NCBI RefSeq assembly: GCF_900182555.1
Contig: NZ_FXTH01000010.1
Location: 62,001-126,000, forward strand
Length of the DNA stretch: 64,000 bases
Direction of reading: 5' to 3'
Origin: Fodinibius sediminis
Lineage (GTDB): Bacteria; Bacteroidota; Rhodothermia; Balneolales; Balneolaceae
Shown: piece by piece, positions 32,778 to 52,388 of the stretch
How the letters are laid out: every line of letters starts with the position of its first letter
Position numbering within the stretch: the stretch's first letter is position 1
Notes under the pieces: generated by a model
What the model was told of the DNA's origin: nothing
What the model saw: only the letters and a program-made list of their open reading frames with translations
Databases searched by the model: none
Position numbers and translations under genes: made by a program

Positions 32778-33350
32778 TTAGAGAAATGATGAAAATTTAT
32801 CTCTCAGGGTTTGCAAGGCTCTACATATCTGTGTATCAACGGTATTCACTGAAATGTCAAGCTCCTTGGCAATTTCCTTGTAGGTCATCCCTTCATAGCG
32901 GCTGAGAATAAACACCAACCGACGGCGTGAAGGCAGTTCTTCTATGGCTTTCTTTACTTCTTTGAGCATAAATTTGTTATGGAGCTTTTCATCCACTCTT
33001 TTTTTATCCGATGAGTATGAATGAAGGGCTTTTTTTTCTTTTTCCCACTCTCTGACAATTTTTTTGTGACGGCTATGATCTATGGCAAGGTTCCTACCAA
33101 CTTTATATAAATAGTTTTTTACCTTTTCATTCGGATTTAATTCCCCTCTGTTTTCCCAGACCCTCACGAATACTTCCTGCACCATATCTTCCGCCACCTG
33201 ACTATTTTGCACATATCCCCATAGAAACCGGTGCAGTCCCGAGTAATATCTTCGGAATAATTTTTCAAAAGCCTCTTTATTGCTGTTGCGTATTTGCTCA
33301 ACTAACGTTTTGTCAGTCGGCAACGGGCTAAATTTATGAGCAGAATCCAT
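32778..33350 (-). CDS. ECF-type RNA polymerase sigma-70 factor, without adjacent anti-sigma gene
   Basis: A 190-residue ECF sigma factor. Region 2 is at about 25-95 (FRRYYSGLHRFLWGYVQNSQVAEDMVQEVFVRVW) and region 4 at about 130-185 (LPSRRRLVFILSRYEGMTYKEIAKELDISVNTVDTQI), a clear helix-turn-helix. No FecR gene is next to it. It lies 193 bases downstream of the PQQ dehydrogenase gene, at the end of the long minus-strand sugar locus, whose own FecR (56386-57531) has no sigma neighbour. A cognate pairing across 23 kb is therefore an attractive inference. The sequence is more AT-rich than the genes beside it. Confidence 0.9.
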   Translation of the reverse strand: MDSAHKFSPLPTDKTLVEQIRNSNKEAFEKLFRRYYSGLHRFLWGYVQNSQVAEDMVQEVFVRVWENRGELNPNEKVKNYLYKVGRNLAIDHSRHKKIVREWEKEKKALHSYSSDKKRVDEKLHNKFMLKEVKKAIEELPSRRRLVFILSRYEGMTYKEIAKELDISVNTVDTQICRALQTLRDKFSSFL

Positions 33351-33543: not shown

Positions 33544-35724
33544 TTAACCGGGTAAAGCAAACGCCACGTAACAGTCATCGGGAGGAGTCCCCCTTCCCCC
33601 GCCCACGGCGATAACGACATACTGCCTGCCGTTACTCATATAGGTTGAAGGGGTTGCAAATCCACCCGTCGGCAGCGTTGTTTCCCAAAGTAATGCACCC
33701 GTATCCTTGTCAAAAGCGCGAAATTTTTTGTCTCTGGTACCACCGATAAAGACTAAGCCGCCTGCTGTCACGATGGGGCCACCTGCACTTTCGAGTCCTG
33801 TAAGACCGGAGGACTCCAGTTCAGGGTCCGTCCCCAGCGGAATGCGCCACGCTATTTCGCCGGTATGCAAGTTAATGGCATTTAATGTTCCCCAGGGAGG
33901 CGTGACAGCCGGAAATCCATCGGGATCCTCAAAACGGCTGTAGGCCGTTACATTGATGTATCTGCCTTTATTTTCAAATCCATTCTCCCCTTCGTGTACC
34001 GCCGGCTTTTCCCGATCCCCCTTCTGGTTGAATAGAAAAGCTATAATGGCTTCTTTTTCGGCTTGCGATATATCAGTAAACGCCGGCATCATGCCCCCAC
34101 CCTGCCTGATAATCTCCAGCACTTCATCTTCTGATCTTTTCTGTGCTATATCTGATAGTGGAGGATAAGTAGGCTGCTGGCCTTTCAGCTTGGAGCCATG
34201 GCAGGAAGCACAATTCTGCAGATAGAAGGTTTCGCCCCGTTCAAAAAGGGATTTATCCGGCGAGGGTTCCTGTTTGACCTTTTTAACGGTGGAAATTTCG
34301 GGTGTTTCGTTGGCATTGACATAAAGTAATCCCGAATGCGGATCATAAGCCGCACCTCCCCAGTTAGCCCCTCCGCGGGTGCTGGGAAACAGCACTGTTC
34401 CCCGGGGATCAGGGGGAGTAAAGAGTCCTTCGTTGCGAAGGGTTCCGAGTTTTTCCTGAACAGCATCATGGGCGGCCTGCGATCTTTCTGTAACGTCTTC
34501 TTCTCTGAATCCCTGACGAACGAACGGCTCCGGCTTGACCGGAACAGGCTGGGTTCGCCAGGTCTGTTCGGATGCAATATTGGAAGATGGAAAAGGTTTC
34601 TCTTCAATGGGAAAAAGCGGCGTCCCCGTTTCCCGGTTGAATACAAATGTAAATCCGGTTTTGGTGACCTGGGCTACGGCGTCTACCTCCCTGCCATCAT
34701 GTTGTACGGTAACCAAATTGGGAGGCGCCGGCAAATCATAGTCCCACAAATCATGGTGGACCGTCTGATAATGCCAGACATATTTACCTGTTGAAGCATC
34801 CAGCGCAACCAGGGAATTGCCGTACAGGTTTTTTCCCTTGCGATTGCCCCCGTAGAAATCATAGACTGGAGAGCCCAGCGGGATATAGACGATGCCTCGC
34901 TCCCTATCCAGGCTCATCCCTGCCCAGTTATTTACTCCCCCGCGGTTCTGCAATGAATCCTGGCTTCCACCGGCCCATGTTTCCGCTCCCTTCTCTCCGG
35001 GTTGCGGGATCGTGTGAAATGTCCACTCGACGTCGCCCGTACGAACATTATAAGCACGGATATGTCCGGGCGGTGCCTTATAGCTTTCCCCCACGGCCGA
35101 ACCCATGATGAGTAAATTTTCATACATGATACCAGGCGAGGAGGCTTTTACCGAAATTTTATCCGGATCCCTTCCCAGGCCAACATTCAGATCTACTTTA
35201 CCCTCAGTACCAAAATTAGCTATTAATTCTCCGGTTGATGCATCCAGGGCATAGAGATGGGGGCCTGCTGAAAACAGTATGCGCTGGTCGTTGCTATCTT
35301 CCCAGTAAACAACCGATCTCATATAGCCCCGGGCCCGGCCGCCTTCAAAAGGATCGAACCGCCACAGTTCTTCCCCCGTTTCTGCGTTCAGAGCAAACAC
35401 TTTTAAGTACGGTGAGGCCCCGTAAAGCACATTATCAACGATTAATGGATTCGTTTCTATGGTCGAATAATCCTCCTCTTTGGCATCTCCAACTTCGTAC
35501 TTCCAGGCGACCTCCAGCTGATTGACATTCTGCTTATTAATCTGGCTAAGCGTGGAATAGCTTGAGCTGGCCGCATCACTCTTGTATACTGCCCAATCAC
35601 TTTCACTCACACCGGAATGGCATCCGACCAAGGCGGTCCCCCCAAAGATAATAGCACATACGATAAAAGAATAAGACCTTATCTTCACTGGAACAGGATT
35701 AAAAGACTTCATAGACGGCAGCAA
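33544..35724 (-). CDS. PQQ-dependent dehydrogenase with internal cytochrome c domain
   Basis: A 726-residue quinoprotein of the membrane glucose-dehydrogenase-like PQQ family, which oxidises an alcohol or the anomeric carbon of a sugar outside the cytoplasm. A signal with lipobox ALVGC ends at Cys35 (an ATG at residue 5 is an equally good start). Propeller blades include EELWRFDPFEGG, LYALDASTGELIANF and LVALDASTGKYVWHYQ, with the family stretch HHDLWDYDLPAPP. A class I cytochrome c unit is inserted at about 490-575, with heme motif CASCH at 505-509 and axial-ligand candidate MMPAF. The propeller then resumes (INLHTGEIAWRIPLG, FRAFDKDTGALLWE). Electrons would go to the built-in heme. It begins 5 bases after the AGE-type gene stop, so they are co-transcribed. 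No pqq biosynthesis genes are visible. Confidence 0.92.
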   Translation of the reverse strand: MLPSMKSFNPVPVKIRSYSFIVCAIIFGGTALVGCHSGVSESDWAVYKSDAASSSYSTLSQINKQNVNQLEVAWKYEVGDAKEEDYSTIETNPLIVDNVLYGASPYLKVFALNAETGEELWRFDPFEGGRARGYMRSVVYWEDSNDQRILFSAGPHLYALDASTGELIANFGTEGKVDLNVGLGRDPDKISVKASSPGIMYENLLIMGSAVGESYKAPPGHIRAYNVRTGDVEWTFHTIPQPGEKGAETWAGGSQDSLQNRGGVNNWAGMSLDRERGIVYIPLGSPVYDFYGGNRKGKNLYGNSLVALDASTGKYVWHYQTVHHDLWDYDLPAPPNLVTVQHDGREVDAVAQVTKTGFTFVFNRETGTPLFPIEEKPFPSSNIASEQTWRTQPVPVKPEPFVRQGFREEDVTERSQAAHDAVQEKLGTLRNEGLFTPPDPRGTVLFPSTRGGANWGGAAYDPHSGLLYVNANETPEISTVKKVKQEPSPDKSLFERGETFYLQNCASCHGSKLKGQQPTYPPLSDIAQKRSEDEVLEIIRQGGGMMPAFTDISQAEKEAIIAFLFNQKGDREKPAVHEGENGFENKGRYINVTAYSRFEDPDGFPAVTPPWGTLNAINLHTGEIAWRIPLGTDPELESSGLTGLESAGGPIVTAGGLVFIGGTRDKKFRAFDKDTGALLWETTLPTGGFATPSTYMSNGRQYVVIAVGGGRGTPPDDCYVAFALPG

Positions 35725-35729
35725 AACCT

Positions 35730-37094
35730 CTACTCTGAGCTTTCGTTCTGAGCCATCGCCTTCAGAAGCTCCTTCGATCTAAGTAGTCCACGGATGGTGT
35801 GATAGTTTCCTTTCCAGATCGTAGCCTTCGGCGTCTTCCGGGCTTCCGGCTCCTCATCCAACCCACTCCGATACCACCCGCCATGTTCCCGGTCAAGCAT
35901 ATACTGTTTAATGTAGGCCCACTGCCGGGCAAACAGATCGAAGTAATTATGCGGATCATCCGGAAAATACCGGGCCATTATCAACAGGGAATGCAGGGCC
36001 TCCACCTGAGACCACCACACCTTGGCCTTGGATGTCACGGTCAGGCTGTCATCGCCCTGGAAGTAATAGCCATAATCATAGATCCCACCCTCTTCCTCAT
36101 CCCAGGCATGTTCGACTGTGTGATCGACCATCTGCTTTGCCTTTGAAAGAGTGGAATCGGCAGGAAACCCCAGGGCGTGAGCGGCCTCCAGCAGGAGGAA
36201 GGCGGTCTCAATATCATGACCAAAAGTGATGTGATCAGTATCGAGATGGGCTTTCTGCAGGGCCCGCGACGAGTCGGTATAGACCACCGGCGACCAATCG
36301 GCCCGGAAGTTGAGGTTCAAATACCCTTTGTCGGTCACCATGCGGTCGCGCACAATACGGTACATCTCATGCAGTCGCTCGCGGAGCAGAGCGTCCGGCC
36401 ATACCTGGTACAACTCCGCCAGAGCCTCCAGAATATGGATGCTGCTGTTGTAATCCTTGGGAAACCCCTCGGAATAGGGCTTTCCCTCCCGGGTCAGGCT
36501 ATTGAAATAGCCCCCGTTTTCAGGGTCATAGGCGCCTTCGTCCAGCCAGCGGAACGCCTCCCTGGCCAAATCCAGCACTTCCGGATCCTTGGAGACCTGG
36601 TAGTAGGCGGCCAGGCCATAGATACCGAAGGCATTGCCATAAAGCTGTTTCCGGACGGTATCTCCCTCCGCTATAACCTCACCCTCACGGCTGACCAGCT
36701 CATAGAACCCGCCATGTTCCTGATCCCACATGCCCCCCCGGAGAAATTGATAGCCGTGGCGTCCATAATCTTCGAATGCAGTCAGGCCGTTATCGGCCGC
36801 GGCTATTTTTGAAGTCGACCAGACATGACGGGCCTGCGTCACGATAAATTTATCCTGGTCTCCCTCTGGCTTCCAGTCGTAGGTAAACTGGCTCAGGTAA
36901 CCACCGTGCTGCCGGTCCATCACCCGCGGGTACCACAGCTGATACTGATCATTCAGTACGCTGTCTATTTCATTCATAATGGTCCGGGCCCGATCCTGAA
37001 CCGGGGGCGGACCTGCCTGCGAATCCTTGTTTTCGCACTTCGCCAGGACAAACCCTCCCAGTATTACAACGACCAGTACTCTCAATAGCCTCAT
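35730..37094 (-). CDS. AGE-family (N-acylglucosamine 2-epimerase-like) lipoprotein
   Basis: A predicted (alpha/alpha)6-barrel sugar epimerase or isomerase of the AGE/cellobiose-2-epimerase family. I use the ATG at 37094, giving 454 residues, because it starts directly at a signal peptide (MRLLRVLVVVILGG) with lipobox LAKC; the longer frame from 37169 would overlap the upstream gene. Conserved parts are RQHGGYLSQFTYDW, ARHVWSTSKIA, WDQEHGGFYELV, a central HILEALAELY, HDIETAFLLLEAAHALG and the late WWSQVEALHSLL and LDREHGGWYRSGL. Paired histidines and Trp-rich motifs match family active sites. It lies 35 bases after the enolase-superfamily gene and 5 before the PQQ dehydrogenase. Family members act on aldoses or disaccharides; here the lipobox puts it in the periplasm or outer membrane. 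Confidence 0.88.
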   Translation of the reverse strand: MRLLRVLVVVILGGFVLAKCENKDSQAGPPPVQDRARTIMNEIDSVLNDQYQLWYPRVMDRQHGGYLSQFTYDWKPEGDQDKFIVTQARHVWSTSKIAAADNGLTAFEDYGRHGYQFLRGGMWDQEHGGFYELVSREGEVIAEGDTVRKQLYGNAFGIYGLAAYYQVSKDPEVLDLAREAFRWLDEGAYDPENGGYFNSLTREGKPYSEGFPKDYNSSIHILEALAELYQVWPDALLRERLHEMYRIVRDRMVTDKGYLNLNFRADWSPVVYTDSSRALQKAHLDTDHITFGHDIETAFLLLEAAHALGFPADSTLSKAKQMVDHTVEHAWDEEEGGIYDYGYYFQGDDSLTVTSKAKVWWSQVEALHSLLIMARYFPDDPHNYFDLFARQWAYIKQYMLDREHGGWYRSGLDEEPEARKTPKATIWKGNYHTIRGLLRSKELLKAMAQNESSE

Positions 37095-37129
37095 AGCTTC
37101 TACCTGTCTAATGTTGATCTTGTATGCCT

Positions 37130-38560
37130 TCAGCTCCACAAGCGGTCCCAGGAACGCACCTCGTTCCACTCCGGGGTGGGCTCGAAAAAGCCTGCATCCT
37201 CAATAAGGCTGTCCTTGACCACATCCATGTTCAGCTCCACTCCCAGCCCCGGTTTCTCCGGCACCGTGGCATAGCCATCATCGAAAATCATGGCCGGATC
37301 CCCGTCGTACATGTCATACCACCGGTCAACACCCACCGAGTGATGCTCAAGGGTATTGAAGTTCTGAGTGGCCGCCGCTACATGAACCGAAGCCATAAAA
37401 CCGATGGGCGAGCCCGCAAAATGAAGGTTCATCGCTACCCCGTTGGCCTGGGCATAGTCGCCGATCTTCTTGGTCCCCAGGACGCCCGTCGAGCCCGGGT
37501 CCGGGTGAATAATATCTACTGCCCGCTTGTCAATCAGCGGTTTGCACCCCTCCCAGGTGCCAATGTCTTCACCGGTCTGAGTGGGTGTAGTGGTGGCATC
37601 GGTGATTTCTTTCCACAGGTTGGTCCACTTCCACGCAACCAGATCCTCGGCATAGGCGATGGTATAGGGTTCCAGCATGCGAGCAATCTTAATAGCCTCG
37701 TTGACTCCAAAATGACCAAAATGATCGATTCCCAGCGGGATTTCATAGCCGATGGTATCACGCATGACGCGCACGTACTCCTCCATCAGCTCCAGTCCTT
37801 TCTCAGTAATCTGGATGCGCGTGAACGGGTGGTCAATCTGACCGTATTCTCCGGGAGTCCCCGAGTACTGGCTCTGCAGGCGGGAATCGCCCTTGGGGAT
37901 ATGGGCTCCGGAGTTCACCAGGGTGCCCGGGGTCTGCGAGAGCAATTCAATTCCGATGTCCATCTTCAGGGCCTTGTAACCTTGATCCACCCGGGTCTTC
38001 TTCATCCGGCGGGCAAATTCGTGAGGGTCCTTGGCCCCTGCCGTGTCGGCATAAAGCTGAATCTTGTCACGATACTTTCCGCCCAACATCTGGTAGACGG
38101 GTACACCGTAGGCCTTGCCGGCGATGTCCCAAAGTGCCATCTCCACGGCCGCCACGCCGCCGGCCTGCCGGCCTTCGCCGCGAAACTGTTCAATAATTCC
38201 AAGCAGTTTCTCCACATTGCAGGGATTGTGACCCAGAATCCGGCTCTTGAGCATCAGGGCATACTCCTTGGCGCCGCCGTCGCGTACCTCTCCGTAGCCG
38301 GAGATCCCCTGATTGGTATCAATGCGGACCAGCGGTACCCGGAAGGGAATGCCGTCCACTTCTGCAATACGCAAGTCGGTAATTTCAAGTTCCGAGGGAG
38401 CTGAATTTCTGTTGATATTTGACGCCAGGTGACCGACTTGCTCCTCCAGGGGGCGCATCATCAGGGAACCGAGCCCCAGACCGCCCATCCCGGCCTTCTT
38501 CAGAAAATCGCGCCGGCTCTTCCCCTGATATTCCGTGTCATTGCTCTTCCTGTCTGACAT
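37130..38560 (-). CDS. Tat-exported enolase-superfamily (mandelate racemase/muconate lactonizing type) sugar-acid dehydratase, copy 1
   Basis: A 476-residue member of the MR/MLE enolase superfamily, close in layout to mannonate and galactonate dehydratases. It starts with a twin-arginine signal (SRRDFLKKAGMGGLGLGSL). The catalytic barrel shows a KMD motif after strand 2 (YKALKMDIG), metal ligands likely Asp in GIDHFGHFG, Glu in YAEDLVAWK and Glu in TQTGEDIG, and a candidate base histidine in NLHFAGSPIG. Enzymes of this group abstract the proton alpha to a carboxylate and usually dehydrate aldonates to 2-keto-3-deoxy acids. It lies 33 bases downstream of the RraA-like gene and has a paralogue at 39696-41102. 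The substrate is unknown, and racemase or cycloisomerase activity is possible. Confidence 0.87.
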   Translation of the reverse strand: MSDRKSNDTEYQGKSRRDFLKKAGMGGLGLGSLMMRPLEEQVGHLASNINRNSAPSELEITDLRIAEVDGIPFRVPLVRIDTNQGISGYGEVRDGGAKEYALMLKSRILGHNPCNVEKLLGIIEQFRGEGRQAGGVAAVEMALWDIAGKAYGVPVYQMLGGKYRDKIQLYADTAGAKDPHEFARRMKKTRVDQGYKALKMDIGIELLSQTPGTLVNSGAHIPKGDSRLQSQYSGTPGEYGQIDHPFTRIQITEKGLELMEEYVRVMRDTIGYEIPLGIDHFGHFGVNEAIKIARMLEPYTIAYAEDLVAWKWTNLWKEITDATTTPTQTGEDIGTWEGCKPLIDKRAVDIIHPDPGSTGVLGTKKIGDYAQANGVAMNLHFAGSPIGFMASVHVAAATQNFNTLEHHSVGVDRWYDMYDGDPAMIFDDGYATVPEKPGLGVELNMDVVKDSLIEDAGFFEPTPEWNEVRSWDRLWS

Positions 38561-38593
38561 AATAGTTGGTAAGTATTTATTGATTGCGTGTGG

Positions 38594-39538
38594 TTAGTCG
38601 TTGAGCAGATTATCGATGGTCCTGGAACTGACCCCCAGCTCGGATTGCAGCCGTTCGCTGTTGGCCTGCAACCACGCCCGAAAATCCTCCTCGATCGCAT
38701 CGGTCCATTCGGTATCCATCTGACCAGCGGTATAGGTGCCGCTGCGCACCCGTTCGTGGGCGAAGGCGTCGCGGGCACGAATCACCTCTGAGCGCGTCAC
38801 CACCTGTTCGGCCAGGTGGGGCGGGATAAAAATCACTCCCTCTGGCTTGGCCAGCACCACATCACCGGGCAGCACTGTCACTGAGCCGATCCGCGTCGGC
38901 CCGTTGATGGCTGCCAGCATCATTTCCTGGATAAAGGAGGGGTGCCAGTCGCGCACAAAGGCGTTGAAGCCCTCGATTTCGGCCAGGCCCTCACGGTCTC
39001 GTGAGGAACCGTTGAATACCACCCCGTTGCCGGAATTGGCATAGATCGTATTGCCCAGGCGATCGCCTATGAGCGTGCCATCCTTTACTTTTCCATAGCC
39101 GTCGGCCACGTATACATCGCCCTGCTCGAGCATGTCGATGGGCCAGGTGTTGGGCGGGCCCGACCGATCGGCCTTTTTGCCCTCGCCATCAATGTACTCC
39201 TGCACCCCGGGGCGCGCCGGCATATAGGTAGCGGTCAGCGCCCGGCCCACTATGGGCTCCTCCGGATGCAGAATCCTCCACTGCCCTCCTTCAAACTGGT
39301 TGTGGTATCCCTCGCCACGGATGATGCCCCAGGCCTCTTCAATAGTTACATGCTCCATGCGCTCCAGGATGTGGTCCGGCACCCGCGGGCGTCCATCATC
39401 AAAACGCTCCCCCTCCCAGTGGGGGGTGAGGGCAATAAGCTTTTCCTCTGGGATCGTCTGCGCATTCACCCGAAACGGGAAACATAAACAGAAGATGAAA
39501 ACAAAAATTGACCAAGACTTTACATATTTCATAATCAT
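38594..39538 (-). CDS. Exported RraA-family protein (aldolase/decarboxylase-like)
   Basis: A protein of the RraA/4-hydroxy-4-methyl-2-oxoglutarate aldolase family with a cleavable signal peptide ending FRVNAQ. I place the start at 39538 (about 314 residues); upstream ATG 39565 and downstream ATG 39532 are possible. The family core is at about 110-235: GRALTATYMP, DRLGNTIYAN and GVVFNGSSRDREG, in which the Arg-Asp pair of the metal-dependent aldolases is kept, although the preceding Asp of DGxxRD is Asn. VLPGDVVLAKPEGVIFIPP follows. A C-terminal helical tail has FRAWLQANSERLQ. Family enzymes cleave or decarboxylate 2-keto acids. It sits between the two enolase-superfamily genes. Confidence 0.82.
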   Translation of the reverse strand: MIMKYVKSWSIFVFIFCLCFPFRVNAQTIPEEKLIALTPHWEGERFDDGRPRVPDHILERMEHVTIEEAWGIIRGEGYHNQFEGGQWRILHPEEPIVGRALTATYMPARPGVQEYIDGEGKKADRSGPPNTWPIDMLEQGDVYVADGYGKVKDGTLIGDRLGNTIYANSGNGVVFNGSSRDREGLAEIEGFNAFVRDWHPSFIQEMMLAAINGPTRIGSVTVLPGDVVLAKPEGVIFIPPHLAEQVVTRSEVIRARDAFAHERVRSGTYTAGQMDTEWTDAIEEDFRAWLQANSERLQSELGVSSRTIDNLLND

Positions 39539-39695
39539 TGATTTATACTTTTGGTATCTAATCATTCGTAATGTTAGGTATTCTGAATCGGTGGCCCAAA
39601 CCGTCCGTGCCTGCCCGGGGTATTATTGCAACAGATCGTCTTAAGCACTTACACAACCAGGAAAACCATGCCAACCCATCACCAGGGGTCCCCTG

Positions 39696-41102
39696 TCAGC
39701 TCCATAGACGGTCCCACGAACGTTGCTGATCCCACTCCGGAGTGGGGGCAAAAAATTCGGCATCATCCATAAGATGTTCTTTTACAACGTCCTCATTCAG
39801 TTCCACTCCAATACCCGGCTTCTCGGGGACCCTCACATATCCATCCTGAACAATAGGCTTATCGATGCCCGTAACAAGGTCCTCCCACCATGGATCGTCC
39901 ACAGAATGATGTTCCAGCCACATAAAGTTTTCAGTAGCGGCTGCACTGTGTACACAACCTAAAAAGGAGACCGGGGAAGCGGCATGATGATGCATGAAAC
40001 CGATCCCATGCCGGGAGGCATAATCTCCTATGCGTTTGGTCTCTAAAATTCCCCCCGCCGAATTTGGATCGGGATGAACGATGCTCACAGCCTGGTTGTC
40101 AATCAGGGGCTTAAATCCTTCCAAGCCAAAAATATCTTCCCCTGTCAGCGTAGGGGTCGTTGAGGAGGTGGTAATTTCTCGCCATTGTTCTGTATACTGC
40201 CAGGGGATGATATCTTCGGAGTATGCCAGGTTATACGGTTCGGCCGCGCGATTTATTTTAATAGCCTCGTTTATCCCGAAGTGCCCCCAGTGATCGACCC
40301 CCAGTGGTATTTCATACCCAATCTTTGATCTTGTAACATCAATGTACTCCATGAGCCGGTCAATACCTTTATCCGTGATCTGGATCCTTGTAAATGGATG
40401 CTTCGTATTTGAATAACTGCCGGCTATCGAGTTCCAGCCTGACAATCCTCCCGGCTGGTTTCTCCAAAACTCGGCATTGACCAGTGTCCCGGGGACATCA
40501 GCAATGAGCCCTATACCCACATCCATTTTAAGTGCTGTATACCCCTGATCAATTCTTCCCTGCAACCTGTCGGCAAAAACTTCTGGATCCTTGGATGTGG
40601 GAGTATCAGCATAAACCCGAACTTCGTCTCTGTATTTGCCTCCCAGCATTTGATACACCGGCACGCCATATGCTTTCCCGGCCAAATCCCACAGAGCCAT
40701 TTCAACGCCTGAAACACCTCCCCCCTGCCGCCCGTGACCTCCGAATTGTTTTATTATTCTAAATAATTTTTCCACATTGCAGGGATTCATGCCCAGAATC
40801 CGGCTTTTCAGCATCAGTGCATATCGGGGGTCTGCCCCGTCCCTGACATCTCCGTATCCATGGATTTCCTGGTTGGTACTAATCCGAATAATCGGCGCAG
40901 CATCATCGACATGGGCAATGCGCATATCGGTAATCTGTAGATCAGAGGGGGCGGAATTCCTGTTAATCCTGGAAGTCAACTGTTCAATCTGACTCCGCTG
41001 CGGTGCCATGATCAGTGATCCAAGGCTCATTCCACCCAGGGCGGTTTGCCGCAAAAAATCCCGTCGCTTAATGCCTTTTTTCTCCTTTTTTGATTCTTTC
41101 AT
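39696..41102 (-). CDS. Tat-exported enolase-superfamily sugar-acid dehydratase, copy 2
   Basis: A 468-residue paralogue of the gene at 37130-38560. A Tat signal (IKRRDFLRQTALGGMSLGSL) is followed by the MR/MLE fold, with the same KMD motif (YTALKMDVG), Asp-His in GVDHWGHFG, Glu in YSEDIIPWQ and TLTGEDIFG, and a His-rich GFMHHHAASPVSF where copy 1 has NLHFAGSPIG. Both copies end in PTPEW-x(2-5)-RSWDRLWS, so they share a C-terminus. The differences near the active site suggest different sugar acids or stereoisomers. It is 157 bases before the RraA-like gene and 362 bases after the second AGE-like gene. Confidence 0.87.
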   Translation of the reverse strand: MKESKKEKKGIKRRDFLRQTALGGMSLGSLIMAPQRSQIEQLTSRINRNSAPSDLQITDMRIAHVDDAAPIIRISTNQEIHGYGDVRDGADPRYALMLKSRILGMNPCNVEKLFRIIKQFGGHGRQGGGVSGVEMALWDLAGKAYGVPVYQMLGGKYRDEVRVYADTPTSKDPEVFADRLQGRIDQGYTALKMDVGIGLIADVPGTLVNAEFWRNQPGGLSGWNSIAGSYSNTKHPFTRIQITDKGIDRLMEYIDVTRSKIGYEIPLGVDHWGHFGINEAIKINRAAEPYNLAYSEDIIPWQYTEQWREITTSSTTPTLTGEDIFGLEGFKPLIDNQAVSIVHPDPNSAGGILETKRIGDYASRHGIGFMHHHAASPVSFLGCVHSAAATENFMWLEHHSVDDPWWEDLVTGIDKPIVQDGYVRVPEKPGIGVELNEDVVKEHLMDDAEFFAPTPEWDQQRSWDRLWS

Positions 41103-41464
41103 AGACGCATTCGTTTAAAGTTATTTACCATCATTACTGCAGGTACAGAGCCGTAATGTACAGAAATGGTCACCCTTGGGCCTGCTCTTCTGTGAGCTCA
41201 GGAACTGCACCACACCATGCTTTAGAAGCTAACTGAACATCCAAAGGCAGGGCATTATAAAATCATATTCCCTGTATCCTTTTTTACTTCTGCTGTATGC
41301 CCTGCTCATTTTCATATCTTATAACGAATTAAAAGCAAAATACCACCACAACTATTTAAATCACCGCGTTGACGACAGGTCCTGTAGTGCTGCCCTGTCC
41401 TCCGCCGGCCAACAAAGAGAATCCGGCAGACCTACTCCCTCCCCAATTAGCATATTTTCGCTAC
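41103..41464. other. Intergenic, 362 bp
   Basis: Between two minus-strand genes. No gene or clear terminator was recognised. It may carry an internal promoter for the enolase-RraA-enolase-AGE-PQQ set. Confidence 0.45.
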
Positions 41465-42919
41465 TCATCGCATCAACTCCACCTCTATTTTTTTATTCCC
41501 GGGAGGCAATGTAATAAACCCCTCCTCCGCATTGAACTGATCCCAGATTTCACCATCTATTCGAACACTGTTAATGTAGACTTCAGAATCCTCCGTGATA
41601 TTCGGATACAGTCTCCCCCCCTTTGTGGGGCCATCAACCTTGAAATATAATGTCACGGGCTGCTCTGCTACCCAGAAATTAAGATAGAGATAATTTAACA
41701 GCCCATGCTCCATGGAATGATATGAGGTCTTCGAACGCACCGCTTTGTTACCCTCAACCAGCCTGCCCTCCACCCCCACTTTCAGAAAGGCGCCACCGAA
41801 CTCTTTGTCCATAATATGATCATTCCAAAAATCGGCTCCCTTCTGAAAATTTTGAAGATGATTCCGATCACCGGTAATCCGGTACATATACAGCTCCAGC
41901 ATGTTTCCGTACGCCTGGATCCACCAGGAGGTACTGGCTCTTTTTTTATTTGAATCCCGGAGAAAACTGTGATGCCATGCCCCTGTTTCGCGGTTAAAGG
42001 CAACTTCATACAAGGGAGTATACAACTCCATAGCCCTCTCCCTGTACCGATCTTTGCCGGTAAGAAGGTGCACCCTGAGCAAGAGCCATACCAGTTCCAG
42101 GTTGTGCCCCACATTGATTCTGTTACTCCGTTCGCCATTGAGCTGCCACTGCCGGTCGAAGCTTTCCAGCAGCCATCCTTGCTCCGGAGCCCTCATTTTA
42201 TCCAGCATTAGTTCTATTCCCCTAACCTGTTCATCCAGATACCGGGTACTCTGTGTAACAGGATACAGGTAAGCAAGATAACCGGACAGGGACGCCAGCT
42301 GAGGAGTAGCCTTCTTGGTGTCATCCTCAACCATAAGATCCCGAGCCAGGATATTAACATATCCCCCGTTTTCAGCATCCCAGGCATGCCTGTTCAACAA
42401 TTCGATTGATTTTTCAAGATTATTTAAAACCCGTTTATCACGGGTCACAACATAGTACATGGAAAGCCCGGTCACGGCATAAAGCTGCATAAACATGTCT
42501 TTTTGGCTATCGACAGGCTCCCCCTGCATATCAAGCTCATTAAACCACAATCCATATTCCGAATCCCATCCATTTTCCAGCAGGTCATCAACAATGCCTT
42601 CGGCTATCTCCAGGTATCGGTCTTCGCCGGTGAGCAGATAGGCCGTCGAATAGCTGAAAATATGGCGGGAAACCATTCCGGGGAACTGGCTATCTCCCTG
42701 GAACGGCTGCCATTCCCGATCCATATATGACGGAAAGGATCCCGTATCAGCGTCGTAGGCATACTCTGTCCACGGAATAATGATTTCGTTAAGAGCCTGG
42801 CTTTTCCAAAAATCACCCTCTTTTACATCACTATTTGAAGCGTCCCTTTCCCTACCGCATCCCCCAAAAAGCAATATAACACACACGCCCACTAAATGAC
42901 TCAATTTCACCTTATCCAT
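41465..42919 (-). CDS. AGE-like (alpha/alpha)6-barrel lipoprotein with C-terminal beta domain
   Basis: A 484-residue lipoprotein (lipobox FGGC, Cys21). Residues about 35-400 resemble AGE-family or related six-hairpin barrels: SRHIFSYSTAYLLTGEDRYLE, YGLWFNELD, QLYAVTGLSMYYVVTRDKRVL, HAWDAENGGYVNIL, VGHNLELVWLLLRVHLLTG and ASTSWWIQAYGNMLELYMYRITG. After about residue 410 comes a short beta-rich tail (VTLYFKVDG, ITLPPGNKKIEVELM), not found in the AGE1 gene at 35730-37094. Sequence identity between the two looks low, so the function could be epimerase or glycosidase-like. It is the first gene of the minus-strand enzyme block and divergent from the first CRTAC1 gene. Confidence 0.75.
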   Translation of the reverse strand: MDKVKLSHLVGVCVILLFGGCGRERDASNSDVKEGDFWKSQALNEIIIPWTEYAYDADTGSFPSYMDREWQPFQGDSQFPGMVSRHIFSYSTAYLLTGEDRYLEIAEGIVDDLLENGWDSEYGLWFNELDMQGEPVDSQKDMFMQLYAVTGLSMYYVVTRDKRVLNNLEKSIELLNRHAWDAENGGYVNILARDLMVEDDTKKATPQLASLSGYLAYLYPVTQSTRYLDEQVRGIELMLDKMRAPEQGWLLESFDRQWQLNGERSNRINVGHNLELVWLLLRVHLLTGKDRYRERAMELYTPLYEVAFNRETGAWHHSFLRDSNKKRASTSWWIQAYGNMLELYMYRITGDRNHLQNFQKGADFWNDHIMDKEFGGAFLKVGVEGRLVEGNKAVRSKTSYHSMEHGLLNYLYLNFWVAEQPVTLYFKVDGPTKGGRLYPNITEDSEVYINSVRIDGEIWDQFNAEEGFITLPPGNKKIEVELMR

Positions 42920-43208: not shown

Positions 43209-46200
43209 ATGACTCAGTCAAAAAAAACAGTTCTTTTTCCGGGTCTTCTCACATGCATCCCATTGCTGGCCGTCCTCATCCTCACCAATTGTGCTGCCTC
43301 AACTGATGCACCACCCCTTTTTGAATTGGTACCCCATGAACAAACAGGCATTAATTTCATTAATAATGTGGAAGAAGGTGTAGGAAGCAACATCCTGGAA
43401 ACCGAATTTTTCTATAACGGCGGCGGGGTAGCGACAGGAGATATTAACAATGATGGACTGACAGATATTTATTTTACTGCCAATACAGGGGAAAACGCCT
43501 TATATCTTAACCAGGGTAACTTTCAGTTTAAAAACATCACGGCCAAAGCAATGGTCGGCGATGCTTCGGGCTGGTCGGCCGGAACAGCTATGGTCGACAT
43601 CAACGGGGATGGGTTTTTGGATATTTATGTTTGCAAGGCGGGAGAAACGACATTAAAAAATCGTCATAACAAGCTGTTTATTAACAATGGGGATATGACG
43701 TTTACCGAGGCAGCCGAAAGCTATGGGCTGGATGACCCGGGCTACTGTACACAGCCCGCTTTCCTTGATTATGACCGTGATGGTGACCTCGATCTCTATA
43801 TCGTCAACTATTCCGTTAAACCGCTGACCGGCTTTGACCTTGATGATATCAGGACACAAGTGGATCGTTACGCCGGTGACAGGCTTTACAGGAATGACAA
43901 CGGAACGTTTAGGGATGTCAGCAGGGAAGCCGGTATTGAACAAAATCCCATTGGCTTCGGACTCAGTGCAACGGTCTCTGATTTAAACAGGGATGGCTGG
44001 CCCGACATTTTCGTTACCAACGATTTTATTGAAAGAGACTACCTGTACATCAATCAGGGTGATGGAACCTTCGAGGACGAGATATTTAGCAGGACGGACC
44101 TCACCTCTTACTTTTCGATGGGGTCGGACATCGCCGATATTAACAACGATGCGTCACCTGACATCCTGGTCGCTGATATGCTGCCATACGAATATGCCCG
44201 CAGAAGGGTTTTTAAAAAACCCGACTATAGCATGTATGAGCAGTTGACCGCCCATGGATACCACCGGCAGAACATGAGAAACACCCTGCAAATCAACAGT
44301 GGGAATGGGACATTCACAGAAGTGGGGCGTCTTGCAGGTATTTCCAATACAGACTGGAGCTGGGCTCCCCTGCTGGCTGATTTTAACAACGACGGCCGGA
44401 AAGACATTGTCGTCACCAACGGTTTTGGCCGGTTCTACACCGATCTGGACTACCTGAATAATATTCTATGGGAAAAATATCCCCATGAGGAATTACCGGA
44501 AGATCCGAAGCTCCTCTATAAGCTCGTCCAGCAGATGAAACCGGTTGAGCTGCATAATTTCGCCTTTAAAAATGAGGGAAACCTGTCGTTCAGAGATGTA
44601 TCGGAGACCTGGGGCGTTAATCAGCAGGGCCTCTCTACCGGCGCAGCCTATGCGGACCTGGACAATGACGGGGCGCTGGATTATATCGTGAATAATATCA
44701 ATGAACCCCCCTTCATACTCAGAAACAGGACCCGGACCAGAAAGGAGAACAACTACCTGAAGATTCGCCTGCAGGGAGCCGGCATGAATACTTACGGCAT
44801 CGGGGCCAAAATTACCGTCACCGGTAAAGACAGTACCATCTTCTTCCAGGAAAACTTTCCTGTACGCGGCTTTCAATCATCTGTCGATCCCGTCCTTCAT
44901 TTCGGTCTTGGTTCCCATCAACAGGTTGACATTGAGGTTATCTGGCCCGACCAGTCTCATCAGAAGATAACTGATGTCAGTGCCAACCAGCTCGTCAGGC
45001 TTCACCAGAACAGGGCCGGGAAGCCTTCTTCGGTCCATAAGGATTCCATGTCGCAGCAAAACCAGATGTTTTTATTTCTTGACAACGCTGCCATGGGAAT
45101 GGATTTCACTCACCAGGAGAGCATACAACGCGACCGAATTGACACTCCCCTCATGCCCCATACCTTGACTAACCTCGGCCCGGCACTGGCCAGTGGAGAT
45201 GTCAATAATGATAAACTCGCCGACTTGTTTGTAGGTGGAGGCCAGGGACAAACAGCTGCTCTCTACCTTCAACAACCCAACGGCACATTCAACGAAGTAC
45301 CGATAACTGCCTTCGAAGAGCACCGGCAGCAGGAAGACACCGATGCGCTTTTTATGGATATCACCGGCAACGGGAGCCTCGATCTGTATGTAGTCAGCGG
45401 TGGCAACTCTGATCCGGCTAATGGGCCCGGATACCAGGACCGCCTGTATATTAATGACGGATTTGGCAACTTCGCCTATGCTCCCGATGCACTGCCCCGG
45501 ATGCATAGCAGCGGAGGAACCGTGACCCCGGTAGAACTCAATGGAGACGGCGCCCCGGACCTCTTTGTCGGAGGCCGGGTGAACTCCGGTCGCTATCCCT
45601 CTGCACCCCGGAGTTACCTGCTTAAAAACAACAATGGTCAATTCAGAGATATCACTCAACAAGCGGCACCTCAGCTCGCTTCACCGGGTATGGTCACAGA
45701 TGCCGTCTGGGGAGACTTCAACAGCAATGGCCGGCCGGAGCTTGTTATTGCCGGCGAATGGATGCCGATTCGCATCTTTGAGAAAAACAATGACCATACC
45801 TTCCATGAAATTACCAAAGCGGCTGGACTCCAAACCAGCGCCGGCTGGTGGAACGTCCTGAAAGCAGCTGACCTCAACAGTGACGGGCACCTGGACCTTA
45901 TTGCAGGTAACAGGGGGCTTAATGCCTTTTGGGATGCCTCCACCAAATCACCGGCAATCGTGTATGCCGGTGATTTCAACCATAATGGTTATTACGATCC
46001 CATCCTGACACAGGTCATCGAAGAGAATCGCTACCCCGTGCCCGGCAGAGATCTGTTGCTTCGACAACTGCCTGAACTGGAAAAAAAATTCCCGACCTAT
46101 GCCTCTTATTCAACAGCTACCATCGAAGACATTCTCACCGATGAACAAATGGAGGATGCCATAAAACTTGAAGCTCACACCTTTGCATCAACGGTATTCC

Positions 46201-46559
46201 AGAATAAGGGCGATGGCACATTCCGTTCTATCCCACTGCCCCGGCAAGCACAAACAGCCCCGATTTTCGATATGGTAGTATCCGATTTTGACCATGACTC
46301 CATTCCTGATCTACTGGTTGCCGGCAGCAACTTTGGAACCCGTCCTGAAAATGGTCCCACAGCCAACGAAGGAATGTTACTAAAAGGCCAGGGAACTTTT
46401 GACTTTAGCCCGATCAGTTCTCATGCAACAGGCTTTCTGGGTGTAGGTGATGTTCGAAATATCGAGGTGCTCTCCAGTGGTATTGGGCCACTGATCATTG
46501 TAGGCCGGCATGGAGATACGCTCATTCCCTATCTGTACCAGGGTCCGCAAGGACAGTAA
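43209..46559 (+). CDS. CRTAC1-family lipoprotein with FG-GAP/VCBS repeats and ASPIC/UnbV domain (copy 1)
   Basis: A 1,116-residue surface or periplasmic protein with lipobox LTNC (Cys28). It carries two blocks of calcium-binding FG-GAP/VCBS blades with the pattern D-x-N-x-D-G-x-x-D-I/L-Y: block one at about 70-510 (GDINNDGLTDIYF, DINGDGFLDIYV, DYDRDGDLDLYI, DLNRDGWPDIFV, DFNNDGRKDIVV, DLDNDGALDYIV), block two after about 660 (GDVNNDKLADLFV, DITGNGSLDLYV, ELNGDGAPDLFV, DFNSNGRPELVI, DLNSDGHLDLIA). Between them is an ASPIC/UnbV unit at about 518-595 (VRGFQSSVDPVLHFGLG). No enzymatic motif is seen; a binding role is likely. It is the only plus-strand gene in the sugar locus and converges on its paralogue with an 18-bp gap. 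Confidence 0.9.
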   Translation: MTQSKKTVLFPGLLTCIPLLAVLILTNCAASTDAPPLFELVPHEQTGINFINNVEEGVGSNILETEFFYNGGGVATGDINNDGLTDIYFTANTGENALYLNQGNFQFKNITAKAMVGDASGWSAGTAMVDINGDGFLDIYVCKAGETTLKNRHNKLFINNGDMTFTEAAESYGLDDPGYCTQPAFLDYDRDGDLDLYIVNYSVKPLTGFDLDDIRTQVDRYAGDRLYRNDNGTFRDVSREAGIEQNPIGFGLSATVSDLNRDGWPDIFVTNDFIERDYLYINQGDGTFEDEIFSRTDLTSYFSMGSDIADINNDASPDILVADMLPYEYARRRVFKKPDYSMYEQLTAHGYHRQNMRNTLQINSGNGTFTEVGRLAGISNTDWSWAPLLADFNNDGRKDIVVTNGFGRFYTDLDYLNNILWEKYPHEELPEDPKLLYKLVQQMKPVELHNFAFKNEGNLSFRDVSETWGVNQQGLSTGAAYADLDNDGALDYIVNNINEPPFILRNRTRTRKENNYLKIRLQGAGMNTYGIGAKITVTGKDSTIFFQENFPVRGFQSSVDPVLHFGLGSHQQVDIEVIWPDQSHQKITDVSANQLVRLHQNRAGKPSSVHKDSMSQQNQMFLFLDNAAMGMDFTHQESIQRDRIDTPLMPHTLTNLGPALASGDVNNDKLADLFVGGGQGQTAALYLQQPNGTFNEVPITAFEEHRQQEDTDALFMDITGNGSLDLYVVSGGNSDPANGPGYQDRLYINDGFGNFAYAPDALPRMHSSGGTVTPVELNGDGAPDLFVGGRVNSGRYPSAPRSYLLKNNNGQFRDITQQAAPQLASPGMVTDAVWGDFNSNGRPELVIAGEWMPIRIFEKNNDHTFHEITKAAGLQTSAGWWNVLKAADLNSDGHLDLIAGNRGLNAFWDASTKSPAIVYAGDFNHNGYYDPILTQVIEENRYPVPGRDLLLRQLPELEKKFPTYASYSTATIEDILTDEQMEDAIKLEAHTFASTVFQNKGDGTFRSIPLPRQAQTAPIFDMVVSDFDHDSIPDLLVAGSNFGTRPENGPTANEGMLLKGQGTFDFSPISSHATGFLGVGDVRNIEVLSSGIGPLIIVGRHGDTLIPYLYQGPQGQ

Positions 46560-46577: not shown

Positions 46578-49500
46578 CTAATCTCGTCCGCTGGACCGGG
46601 GCTCAGCATTCACTTTAACCAGCTGCAAATAATCATCATTTTTGGCAATCAAAATTCCCCTTTCCCCATTCCGGCCTAATCGAATACGTTCCAGATCCTT
46701 GACATCTCCTCCTGCATATAATCCACTTTCACGGGCGGGAATCGAACGCAGGCTACCATCCTCATTTCTTGCCAGGAACAGACCGATACTTGCATCATTC
46801 CTGGGGATATGCGTTTCGGAGCTGTAGAGGTTTCCTGCAATGACAACATCAGTACGATTGTCTCCATTAAAATCTTCGGTCAGAATACCGTTTACCGAGG
46901 ATAGCTGAGCCATATTCGGAAGAGGTGAAACCGTAAACCTACCATTCTCCCCATTCTCCAGGTAACTACTGGCAAAGGTCCGTGCCTTATAGTTCAGGGC
47001 CTCACTCAATTTCTGCTGGCCGAATATATCATCAAGTGTAGCTCGTCCATAGGCATCAAAGGTGGTAAACTTCTTCTTGATAAAAGGAAATTGCTGCTGC
47101 ATGATCTCCTTTCCGCGGCGGGGATAAAGGTGACCGCCATTATAATAGCCCATAACAATTTCCTGGCGACCGTCCTCATTGAAATCACCACTAAACAGCT
47201 GAAAAGGTTCCTTTTTTGAGGTGCGAAAGGTATAGTTCAGTCCCAGATTTCCCCCGATATAGTCCATATTTCCGTGTTCATTTATCCCCGCCTCGGCAAT
47301 GCTGAACCACCATCCATTGGTATCTGAAAGCCCCGCCTCTGATGTTTTGTTGATGAATACCCCTTCCTCATTTTCCATAACCAGAATCGACATCCATTCC
47401 CCCACTACCATCAGGTCCACCTGCTTGTCCCCATTATAATCCGACCATATCGCATCTGTGACCATACCTGCTTCATGTAAATCCGGGGCTATCTCATCAG
47501 TTACATCAATGAATGTTCCCCCGTCATTTTTGAGAATGTAACTTCGGGGAGGTGAAGGATAACGGCCCGGAATAAGCCGACCTCCGACAAAGAGATCGGT
47601 CTGCCCGTCGTCATTGAAATCCCCCGGTGCTACCACCGAACCGCTCGTCAACATCTCGGGCAGGGCCGCTGAAGATTTCTCAAAATTCCCCTCCCCATCG
47701 TTCAGGTAGAGACGATCCTGCAGTTCCGGTGAATGGGGATCAAACTCACTCCCCCCGCTCACTACGTACAGGTCCAGGCTTCCATCCCCGTCAGCATCAA
47801 AAAAGGCGGCCTCCATATCTTCACTCCGGCTGTCAAAACGCCAGGGCTGTGATTCAGCCGGTGAGAACGATACCTCCTCGTTCTGTATATACAGGGTGCC
47901 GCTCTGCTCATGCGCTCCCCCGACAAAAAAATCGTCAAGACCGTCGGCATTGACATCTCCCACCGCTATGCCCGGACCAAAGTTCGACATTTTATGGGGC
48001 AGCAGGGGTTCTTTGGCAAAATCATCATATGCATTTTCCTGATGCTGGTATGACAGATCGGCCTGCCGTGTTATATCACTGAAAAGGGGTTCCTGCTGTT
48101 GCTTCTGCTTCTCAACAGGATGAGAGGCATCACCATAGTTCAATACTTTCGTCTGGTCTGCCGCGATGTTATAGATTGTCTGCTGTTTACCGTCCGGCCA
48201 TCTCACAACAGCACTGTCAGCCTGCAAATGGTTTCCCAGTCCAAAGTGAACAACATCCTCCATGGAAGATTGAAATCCACGGTTCAGGTAGTGCTCAATC
48301 ATCTGCTGCTCTCCCCCGCTATAGACTGTTACCCGGCTACCCAATCCGCTCCGGTTATTTGAAGGCCCATCCAGTTTGATCCTGAGATAATGCCGGCCGG
48401 CGGCGGCCGTGTTTCTGTAGATGTAGGGTTTGTCATTTACATTGGTTATAACAAGATCAAGCGCCCCGTCGTTGTTTAAGTCGGCATAGGCGGCCCCGGT
48501 TGAAAAGCCCGGATGATCCATGCCCCATGCCGCATTTTTTTTCGTAAAGGTCAGGTCCCCATTATTCCTGAATATATAGTTTGAGATCGGAGTTGACGGA
48601 ATTCGGGCCAGCAGCTTCGGCATAAAATCCAGGATGCTCAGATCCTCCTCGGCCCGTACCCTGTCCAGTATTTTATTTTCATATCTATCATAATCCTTGT
48701 CTGCCACCTCTTTGTAATACCCATTGGCAATAAAGATATCCTTAAGGCGGTCGTTATCGAAATCGGCCATCAGGGCAGCCCAGCTCCAGTCTGTATTGGA
48801 AATACCTGCAAGCTGCCCAACATCACTGAACACCGCCCTGCCATTGTTAAGCTGCAGCGTATTGCTCATATACTGATAATGGAATCCGTCTTCCACCATA
48901 TAACCAAAGGTAGTGGGATCCATGCCCGTCATATTTGTTTTTTGGCGATAATTCCCTTCCGCAATCATATCGGCAGCCAGGATATCAAGCCATCCATCGT
49001 TGTTAAAATCAGCAATATCGTTCCCCATGGAAAACTGAACAATATGAGGCATCGCCTTCTTCAGTTTCTCGGTAAACGTTCCATCTCCGTTGTTTATGTA
49101 AAGATAGTCCCTTTCCAGGAAGTCATTTCCTACATAAATATCCGGACGACCGTTATTGTTCAGGTCACCGATGGCGATGCCCAATCCATAACCGACGGGA
49201 TTACCGATTATACCGGCTTCTTCACTGACATCCACAAATCCATTGCCCGTGTTTTTATACAGCTTGTCTCCCACATAGGGATCCCGCTGCCCGACGACCT
49301 CCGCAGGGTTAAATGACTCCATTTGCCGGATATTATGGTTCAGCAGATACATATCCAGCAGGCCATCCCCGTTATAATCTAAAAAGGCTGCCTGCGTCGC
49401 ATATCCCCGGTCATCCAGGCCATACTCAGCGGCTCTTTCGGTAAATGTCATATTCCCATTATTAATATAGAGCTCATTGGCCCGCAGCTCGGGTTCCAGA

Positions 49501-49919
49501 GGCCCCGAACGGCATACATAAATATCGAGGTAGCCGTCATTGTTTATATCCACCATTGACACCCCGGTATCCCAGCCCTGGCTGCCCAGTATTCCCGCCT
49601 CAGCCGCCACCTCCTCAAACCGCATATTGCCATTATTTTTGTACAGCCTGTTTTTCACGAAGTTGCCCGTAAAATAGATATCCGCCAGCCCGTCATTGTC
49701 CAGGTCGCCCGTTGCTACACCGCCTCCGTTATGCAGATATTCGTAGGTAAGAATATTAAGGTGTTTGGATTCCGGAATATTATTACTGAACTGAACATTA
49801 GTAGCGGAAGGATCCAAAAGCTTTAAACGGGGGGGGGCGGCCTTACTGTCAGATTGCCCCCTGGAAGAAGTGGGAACGACCATCAAAGCAAGCGCAAGCG
49901 TTAAAAAGCGATATATCAT
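46578..49919 (-). CDS. CRTAC1-family protein with FG-GAP/VCBS repeats and ASPIC/UnbV domain (copy 2)
   Basis: A 1,113-residue paralogue of copy 1 with the same architecture: repeats (GDLDNDGLADIYF, DINNDGYLDIYV, DYNGDGLLDMYL, DLNNNGRPDIYV, DFDNDRLKDIFI, DLNNDGALDLVI), an ASPIC/UnbV unit (GLGSRVTVYSGG, LNRGFQSSMEDVVHFGLG) and a second repeat block (GDVNADGLDDFFV, DADGDGSLDLYV, DFNDDGQTDLFV, DYNGDKQVDLMV). Unlike copy 1 it has an ordinary signal peptide ending SSRGQ, with no lipobox, so it is secreted or soluble in the periplasm. Its ATG is one base after the stop of the small plug-like gene, which implies translational coupling. Confidence 0.9.
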   Translation of the reverse strand: MIYRFLTLALALMVVPTSSRGQSDSKAAPPRLKLLDPSATNVQFSNNIPESKHLNILTYEYLHNGGGVATGDLDNDGLADIYFTGNFVKNRLYKNNGNMRFEEVAAEAGILGSQGWDTGVSMVDINNDGYLDIYVCRSGPLEPELRANELYINNGNMTFTERAAEYGLDDRGYATQAAFLDYNGDGLLDMYLLNHNIRQMESFNPAEVVGQRDPYVGDKLYKNTGNGFVDVSEEAGIIGNPVGYGLGIAIGDLNNNGRPDIYVGNDFLERDYLYINNGDGTFTEKLKKAMPHIVQFSMGNDIADFNNDGWLDILAADMIAEGNYRQKTNMTGMDPTTFGYMVEDGFHYQYMSNTLQLNNGRAVFSDVGQLAGISNTDWSWAALMADFDNDRLKDIFIANGYYKEVADKDYDRYENKILDRVRAEEDLSILDFMPKLLARIPSTPISNYIFRNNGDLTFTKKNAAWGMDHPGFSTGAAYADLNNDGALDLVITNVNDKPYIYRNTAAAGRHYLRIKLDGPSNNRSGLGSRVTVYSGGEQQMIEHYLNRGFQSSMEDVVHFGLGNHLQADSAVVRWPDGKQQTIYNIAADQTKVLNYGDASHPVEKQKQQQEPLFSDITRQADLSYQHQENAYDDFAKEPLLPHKMSNFGPGIAVGDVNADGLDDFFVGGAHEQSGTLYIQNEEVSFSPAESQPWRFDSRSEDMEAAFFDADGDGSLDLYVVSGGSEFDPHSPELQDRLYLNDGEGNFEKSSAALPEMLTSGSVVAPGDFNDDGQTDLFVGGRLIPGRYPSPPRSYILKNDGGTFIDVTDEIAPDLHEAGMVTDAIWSDYNGDKQVDLMVVGEWMSILVMENEEGVFINKTSEAGLSDTNGWWFSIAEAGINEHGNMDYIGGNLGLNYTFRTSKKEPFQLFSGDFNEDGRQEIVMGYYNGGHLYPRRGKEIMQQQFPFIKKKFTTFDAYGRATLDDIFGQQKLSEALNYKARTFASSYLENGENGRFTVSPLPNMAQLSSVNGILTEDFNGDNRTDVVIAGNLYSSETHIPRNDASIGLFLARNEDGSLRSIPARESGLYAGGDVKDLERIRLGRNGERGILIAKNDDYLQLVKVNAEPRSSGRD

Positions 49920-52345: not shown

Positions 52346-52388
52346 TTTTTTCCATGGTTTAATTGCAGATTTCCGTCTTTTCATAAGT

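Follow-up and report, generated by a model that had tools for sequence, protein, structure and literature searches.

A probable exported sugar-acid module built on Tat-tagged enolase-superfamily proteins and a secreted RraA-like protein in Fodinibius sediminis

By textbook accounts, sugar acids are dehydrated and cleaved in the cytosol. In pathways of the De Ley-Doudoroff and non-phosphorylative Entner-Doudoroff type, cytosolic oxidation is followed by a lactonase, an MR-type dehydratase and cleavage of the resulting keto-deoxy acid. Sugars are also oxidized outside the inner membrane, in periplasmic glucose and gluconate oxidation dependent on pyrroloquinoline quinone (PQQ) and in 3-keto-glycoside pathways; as generally described, these routes include to our knowledge neither dehydration to a keto-deoxy acid nor an RraA protein. 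A periplasmic 3-keto-glycoside pathway has been reported for lactose (PMC9007349), and FlDet of Flavobacterium sp. UMI-01 has been described as an RraA-family dehydratase/decarboxylase of 2-keto-3-deoxyglucarate (KDGR; PMC8563752). Here we analyze a 64,000-nt stretch of contig NZ_FXTH01000010.1 (the window, in which all coordinates are given) from Fodinibius sediminis, a member of the Balneolota, where six minus-strand genes with predicted export signals encode an RraA-like protein, two enolase-superfamily proteins (ENO1 and ENO2), two AGE-type proteins (AGE1 and AGE2) and a PQQ-family dehydrogenase. The genes, their export signals, linkage, folds and conserved catalytic residues, together with an alternative partner block, could be shown, and on balance they point to an exported sugar-acid module whose core is a Tat-dependent enolase-superfamily dehydratase and a Sec-dependent RraA enzyme, usually accompanied by an SBF symporter. 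The six genes are:

33544..35724, minus strand: PQQ-family dehydrogenase lipoprotein with a c-type cytochrome inserted in the propeller (PF01011 666 bits, Cytochrome_CBB3 50 bits, CASCH motif); accessory
35730..37094, minus strand: AGE2, exported AGE-type protein with a Sec-like signal and a non-canonical LAKC (PF07221 133 bits); partly core-linked
37130..38560, minus strand: ENO2, Tat-exported MR/MLE acid-sugar dehydratase-like protein (MR_MLE_C 152 bits, TAT signal domain); core
38594..39565, minus strand: secreted RraA-like protein with a Sec-like signal and a D-x20-R-D motif (PF03737 61 bits); core
39696..41102, minus strand: ENO1, another MR/MLE protein with a Tat signal, sharing 60% identity with ENO2 (Pfam/NCBIfam); separate clade, lower G+C content at third codon positions (GC3)
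41465..42919, minus strand: AGE1, divergent AGE-type lipoprotein with FGGC (PF07221 105 bits); core linkage not seen elsewhere

A sequence-only reading of this block had placed the six genes at these positions and in these families, each with an export signal. The positions held, and Pfam and NCBIfam profiles bore out the families. Signals were called by eye and with a simple motif script. The Tat motifs claimed for both enolase-superfamily proteins (KRRDFLRQ in ENO1, SRRDFLKK in ENO2), the Sec-like signal of the RraA-like protein, ending VNA-Q, and the lipobox of the PQQ dehydrogenase (LVGC) were all recovered. The lipoboxes claimed for the two AGE proteins held for AGE1 (FGGC) and not for AGE2, where the best start (ATG 37094) gives a hydrophobic, Sec-like signal followed by VLAKC, a non-canonical lipobox with Lys at -1. 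Because of this Lys, lipidation of the window AGE2 is uncertain, though several orthologues carry a canonical lipobox (IGGC, VASC, SSAC) and two others have Asn at -1. The Tat motif is present on every one of the 36 ENO orthologues whose N terminus is intact, compared with 31 of 768 unassigned open reading frames, and a Sec-like hydrophobic stretch is present on 100 of 104 RraA proteins, a weaker contrast with its background (356/768). Judged by these motif counts, the predicted export signals are not a product of chance, and the window's genome encodes TatC. The signals suggest that sugar-acid steps normally carried out in the cytosol would here be performed outside the inner membrane.

Linkage was surveyed in 245 genomes of the class, counting as neighbors genes within 8 kb of RraA. 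RraA occurs in 25 of these genomes and ENO in 21, and 26 of 29 ENO matches, spread over 18 genomes, neighbor RraA, as do 22 of 35 SBF matches. Genome co-occurrence with RraA (both/partner only/RraA only/neither) was 19/2/6/218 for ENO and 23/10/2/210 for SBF, with Fisher values, which ignore kinship, of 3.5e-21 and 2e-22, respectively. A wider set of 80 loci, fetched from named genomes by RraA similarity and over-representing Flavobacteriaceae, contains further ENO-RraA pairs in Bacteroidota, Planctomycetota and Verrucomicrobiota. The core pair of RraA and a Tat-tagged dehydratase, usually with a membrane importer, recurs over four phyla. In two loci (L177, L178) a far more distant enolase-superfamily protein (33-34% identical) adjoins RraA, and L177 also has an SBF gene next to it; the pairing would therefore predate this ENO clade.

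The flanks of the block behave differently. AGE2 adjoins RraA or ENO in 11 of 31 matches, the PQQ dehydrogenase is linked to the core in three genomes only, and just one of the nine AGE1 matches in the 245 genomes, that of the window's genome, has an RraA neighbor. The test of conserved linkage proposed with the sequence-only reading was thus passed by the core, in part by AGE2, and not by AGE1 or the PQQ dehydrogenase. As RraA-ENO and RraA-SBF linkage spans phyla, an accidental neighborhood of unrelated exported proteins, drawn from families common in Bacteroidota and Balneolota, was rejected for RraA, ENO and SBF on these counts; such an explanation of the block is scarcely credible, and could still apply at most to AGE1 and the PQQ dehydrogenase, which lack conserved linkage and sit in the GC3 mosaic described below.

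Both ENO proteins combine the N- and C-terminal MR_MLE domains of Pfam and belong to the MR subgroup. Residues K199/D201, D279, E305, E331, D354, H380 and E405 are invariant in 29 ENO proteins, and we take them to be the three acidic metal ligands and the Lys and His/Asp catalysts of that subgroup. The AlphaFold 2 (AF2) model of ENO2 (pLDDT 81) best matches 2qq6, 2gl5 and the gluconate dehydratases 3t6c/3twa; the predicted ENO fold is best matched by acid-sugar dehydratases. When NCBIfam equivalog profiles were compared (galactonate, gluconate, mannonate, arabinonate and others), those for glucarate and galactarate dehydratases scored below the galactonate and gluconate ones. Since equivalog cut-offs are not reached and a conserved DHxGH stretch of ENO replaces the DxHG of 2qq6, its closest structural match, the identification of ENO1 and ENO2 with one named dehydratase was rejected and we name no substrate. 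In two other loci (L156, L157) ENO-SBF-RraA has an alpha-L-rhamnosidase for a neighbor, a hint that rhamnonate may be among the substrates there.

The RraA-like protein exceeds the PF03737 cut-off of 24.5 bits, and its AF2 model (pLDDT 91.4) matches RraA-fold proteins including 4-hydroxy-4-methyl-2-oxoglutarate/4-carboxy-4-hydroxy-2-oxoadipate (HMG/CHA) aldolase. Comparison by VIA gave Z 24.0 for 5x15 (rmsd 1.7, 196 aligned), Z 22.5 for 5ir2, ranked second (rmsd 4.4, 217 aligned), and Z 21.8 for the HMG/CHA aldolase 3noj (rmsd 3.5, 211 aligned), while Foldseek placed 5ir2 first by E-value (3.8e-15). The VIA list also contained matches under Z 8, among them isatin hydrolase and the C-terminal domain of dihydroxyacid dehydratase, on which we place no interpretation. 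The NCBIfam equivalog cut-offs for HMG/CHA aldolase are not reached by the window protein (47.2 of 179 and 43.8 of 304.5 bits). Its D-x20-R-D motif comprises D168, R189 and D190; the full motif is found in 97 of 103 RraA relatives, and R189-D190, invariant across 33 relatives, aligns to the RD of 3noj. This pair corresponds to Arg-123/Asp-124 of HMG/CHA aldolase, for which residue roles have been described (PMC5065237).

PDB entry 5ir2, which has the RraA fold, was submitted under the label of a gut-microbial cellulase, and either this label or the view of the fold needs checking. Taken at face value, the label would have RraA act on carbohydrate polymers or oligosaccharides, in keeping with the high rank of 5ir2 in both searches and with an extracellular location. 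We consider this very unlikely, given that the class II aldolase residues are conserved, that 3noj scores within about 1 Z unit of 5ir2, and that the label is the depositor's, with no paper on 5ir2 found in the open-access literature.

The usual third partner of RraA-ENO, the SBF protein, belongs to a family of inner-membrane sodium symporters; its closest NCBIfam model is the ketopantoate transporter PanS, below cut-off. RraA and SBF also recur in a second exported setting, a DgaE-type block with a GSDH-cytochrome protein, an amidohydrolase/deacetylase, a Tat-signalled DgaE-family ammonia lyase (TIGR01437, 199 bits), RidA and YjgF proteins, which occurs in Flavobacteriia and others and in one same-genus genome (L170). 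Among 102 loci, 34 have ENO, 60 have DgaE or amidohydrolase genes and none has both, with SBF nearby in 74. It takes four changes to explain the DgaE-type context on the RraA tree, over which the ENO context is spread, the window's clade included. Since DgaE-type lyases and MR-type dehydratases both yield 2-keto-3-deoxy acids, locus context suggests that this common product is most likely handled by RraA and SBF outside the inner membrane. The combination of GSDH-cytochrome protein, amidohydrolase, SBF, RraA, RidA and Tat-signalled DgaE-like lyase, seen in L089, L170 and 58 other loci, resembles an extracytoplasmic relative of the ong route for oxidized chitin.

The second block also bears on what RraA does with a keto acid. 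Were RraA a FlDet-like dehydratase/decarboxylase of a 2-keto-3-deoxy-aldarate, the locus would handle uronic or aldaric acids and yield alpha-ketoglutarate semialdehyde. FlDet offers a precedent: this RraA-family enzyme has been shown to use a 2-keto-3-deoxy sugar acid, KDGR, and of the compounds tested only that one (PMC8563752). It has 237 residues and a native N terminus at Met, hence no cleaved signal. A DgaE-type block, moreover, would supply 2-keto-3-deoxygluconate (KDG) and not an aldarate, and the low rank of the glucarate and galactarate dehydratase profiles points the same way, so that we regard FlDet-like activity on an aldarate as unlikely.

The GlcNAc_2-epim domain scores of AGE2 and AGE1 (133 and 105 bits) lie well above the 23.4 cut-off, two histidines seen in PDB alignments are retained in both, and neither reaches the cellobiose 2-epimerase cut-off (167 and 83 of 800 bits); AGE2 is 69-73% identical to same-genus orthologues adjoining RraA or ENO. 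The PQQ dehydrogenase, with its 666-bit propeller and c-type heme motif, qualifies as a quinohemoprotein whose cytochrome c (residues 495-564) lies inside the propeller, between PQQ matches at 44-486 and 612-704, and it falls below the subfamily cut-offs for glucose/quinate/shikimate (482 of 833 bits) and methanol/ethanol (266 of 480 bits) enzymes. PqqE had no match in the window's genome (98% complete); the enzyme would therefore need PQQ from outside, which could be taken up. Quinoproteins with a propeller-inserted cytochrome are found in 67 of the 245 class genomes, in several copies per genome, yet the window's genome shows no PqqE. A second PQQ-cytochrome dehydrogenase accompanies eight sulfatases in a row in a sulfated-glycan locus (L166, G000:C11, about 117-132 kb).

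Upstream of the block lie genes for a TIM barrel protein, FecR, SusC, SusD, a plug-domain protein and two FG-GAP proteins, and downstream an extracytoplasmic function (ECF) sigma factor:

32778..33350, minus strand: ECF sigma factor at the downstream block end (Sigma70_r2/r4_2)
43209..46559, plus strand (opposite to the block): FG-GAP/ASPIC-UnbV repeat protein 1 (Pfam)
46578..49919, minus strand: FG-GAP/ASPIC-UnbV repeat protein 2 (Pfam)
49921-50526, between SusD and FG-GAP protein: small protein resembling a lipoprotein, with a plug domain of the TonB type and no barrel
50801..52420, minus strand: SusD-like lipoprotein (PF12771 267 bits)
52389..56039, minus strand: SusC-type TonB-dependent transporter (TIGR04056 552 bits) with an STN-like N terminus (STN 24.1 bits, just under the 28.4 cut-off)
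56386..57531, minus strand: FecR anti-sigma factor, upstream of SusC (FecR 69.6 bits)
57968..58972, minus strand: cytosolic xylose-isomerase-like TIM barrel protein (AP_endonuc_2 157 bits)

Orthologues of the sigma factor stand at the same block end in two same-genus genomes (75% identical in L063, 79% in L168), and in a same-genus genome (L064) an 83% identical TIM barrel gene lies directly upstream of RraA. The SusC/SusD pair with sigma factor and FecR is a feature of polysaccharide utilization loci, and we found no glycoside hydrolase or lyase family across 32.8-59 kb of the window, nor any structured RNA in the window besides a tRNA. GC3 is 66-70 in the TIM barrel gene, RraA, ENO2 and AGE2, similar to the neighboring ProS (68) and AspS (63), and 49-59 in the PQQ, ENO1, AGE1, FG-GAP, SusCD and FecR genes, with the sigma gene at 42. 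From this split, the compositional mosaic suggests an older core joined by later arrivals, that is, a block assembled from pieces.

The sequence-only reading had proposed a single exported pathway running through all six genes, in which an aldose is epimerized by an AGE protein and oxidized by the PQQ enzyme, after which the Tat dehydratase removes water from the acid and RraA splits the product. The RraA-ENO2-AGE2-PQQ series is indeed tightly spaced (gaps of 33, 35 and 5 bases), and relatives hold similar sets: F. salsisoli (L083/L065) has SusCD-FGG-RraA-ENO2-SBF-ENO1-AGE2-PQQ-SGL, and in it and in L071 a gluconolactonase-like SGL lipoprotein adjoins the PQQ gene. In the Flavobacteriia block, too, a heme-bearing quinoprotein-like GSDH is present in 50 of the 60 DgaE-type loci. 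Elsewhere in the genus, the proS-aspS interval that contains the block in the window holds TIM-RraA-ENO2-SBF-ENO1-AGE2 in L064, and RraA-ENO2-AGE2-sigma precedes aspS in L063. The rare linkage of PQQ and AGE1, the failure to find PqqE, the absence from the block of the lactonase that the chain needs, AGE scores far below the cellobiose-epimerase cut-off, and the GC3 of PQQ, ENO1 and AGE1 (50-53) against that of RraA, ENO2 and AGE2 leave the full six-gene chain doubtful. Of the proposed pathway, our results support an exported sugar-acid module, whereas the complete epimerase-oxidase-dehydratase-aldolase order was not shown.

Some observations also weigh against the exported module that we favor. 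The window block contains neither SBF nor the lactonase SGL. No curated dehydratase equivalog cut-off is reached by ENO, the best being galactonate dehydratase at 183 of 311 bits, and in six of 103 RraA proteins the D-x20-R-D motif is missing its first Asp. The genes for the cytosolic KDG kinase and 2-keto-3-deoxy-6-phosphogluconate (KDPG) aldolase cut both ways: their place beside the block in one relative, L071, and their presence in the window's genome favor the module, yet the L071 enzymes would need intact KDG in the cytosol, leaving little for RraA. FlDet, finally, is inactive on KDG (PMC8563752) and so sets no precedent for an RraA-type KDG aldolase. In the window's genome, the single SBF copy lies at a contig end, beside a second RraA and an amidohydrolase, and the genes for KDG kinase and KDPG aldolase belong to a hexuronate locus of standard type (L174, G000:C14 14-34 kb: UxaC, KDG kinase, KDPG aldolase, TRAP transporter, UxaB-like, UxuA), which adjoins SusCD and an FG-GAP protein. 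Relatives also add Tat-tagged UxuA-like dehydratases.

Under the exported-module reading, the compartment is predicted from the signals, and we infer substrates, RraA reaction, transport direction and order of steps as follows. Either in the periplasm or on the cell surface, the Tat dehydratase would most likely convert an aldonic acid to a 2-keto-3-deoxy acid. This product would then be the substrate of RraA, working either as a pyruvate aldolase that depends on metal or as a dehydratase/decarboxylase, and a keto acid would be imported by the SBF carrier, whose gene lies elsewhere in the window's genome. In the window the core is joined to SusCD, FG-GAP proteins, AGE lipoproteins and a PQQ/cytochrome dehydrogenase; the last of these may make the aldonic acid by oxidizing an aldose.

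More tentatively, the two partner blocks might belong to one widespread extracytoplasmic lower sugar-acid pathway, in which interchangeable exported front ends deliver a 2-keto-3-deoxy acid outside the inner membrane, RraA cleaves it and SBF imports pyruvate or a keto acid. One front end would oxidize and dehydrate neutral sugars with the Tat enolase-superfamily dehydratase; the other would oxidize, deacetylate and deaminate amino sugars with the Tat DgaE-type lyase and RidA. If true, this would change the view of how sugar carbon enters Bacteroidota, Balneolota and Planctomycetes. Exported RraA proteins, whose name in profile libraries comes from an RNase regulator, would gain a physiological function, and the substrate of this SBF carrier subfamily could be tested directly; keto acids might also leak to neighbors.

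No earlier description of the module turned up in the open-access literature surveyed. FlDet has in common with it an RraA-family enzyme whose substrate is a 2-keto-3-deoxy sugar acid, and comes from a Bacteroidota species that uses polysaccharides; unlike the window RraA with its predicted signal, it has no cleaved one, its gene lies near an alginate lyase gene, and the excerpts of PMC8563752 mention no enolase-superfamily partner. HMG/CHA aldolase has the same fold and Arg-Asp active-site pair as the window RraA but works in aromatic acid catabolism (PMC5065237). The ong pathway for oxidized chitin in Pseudoalteromonas resembles the Flavobacteriia block in its deacetylase, pyridoxal phosphate-dependent deaminase, RidA and path to KDG; in the excerpts of PMC9537276, however, OngB, OngC and KdgK are cytoplasmic, acting after GlcNAc1A import by an SSS transporter, and no RraA is among the genes described, whereas the Flavobacteriia block's enzymes carry export signals. 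With polysaccharide utilization loci the window shares SusCD and sigma/FecR, but in the block no glycoside hydrolase or lyase family was found. Compared with cytosolic oxidative sugar pathways, the dehydratase and RraA here carry export signals, and the aldolase family is a different one.

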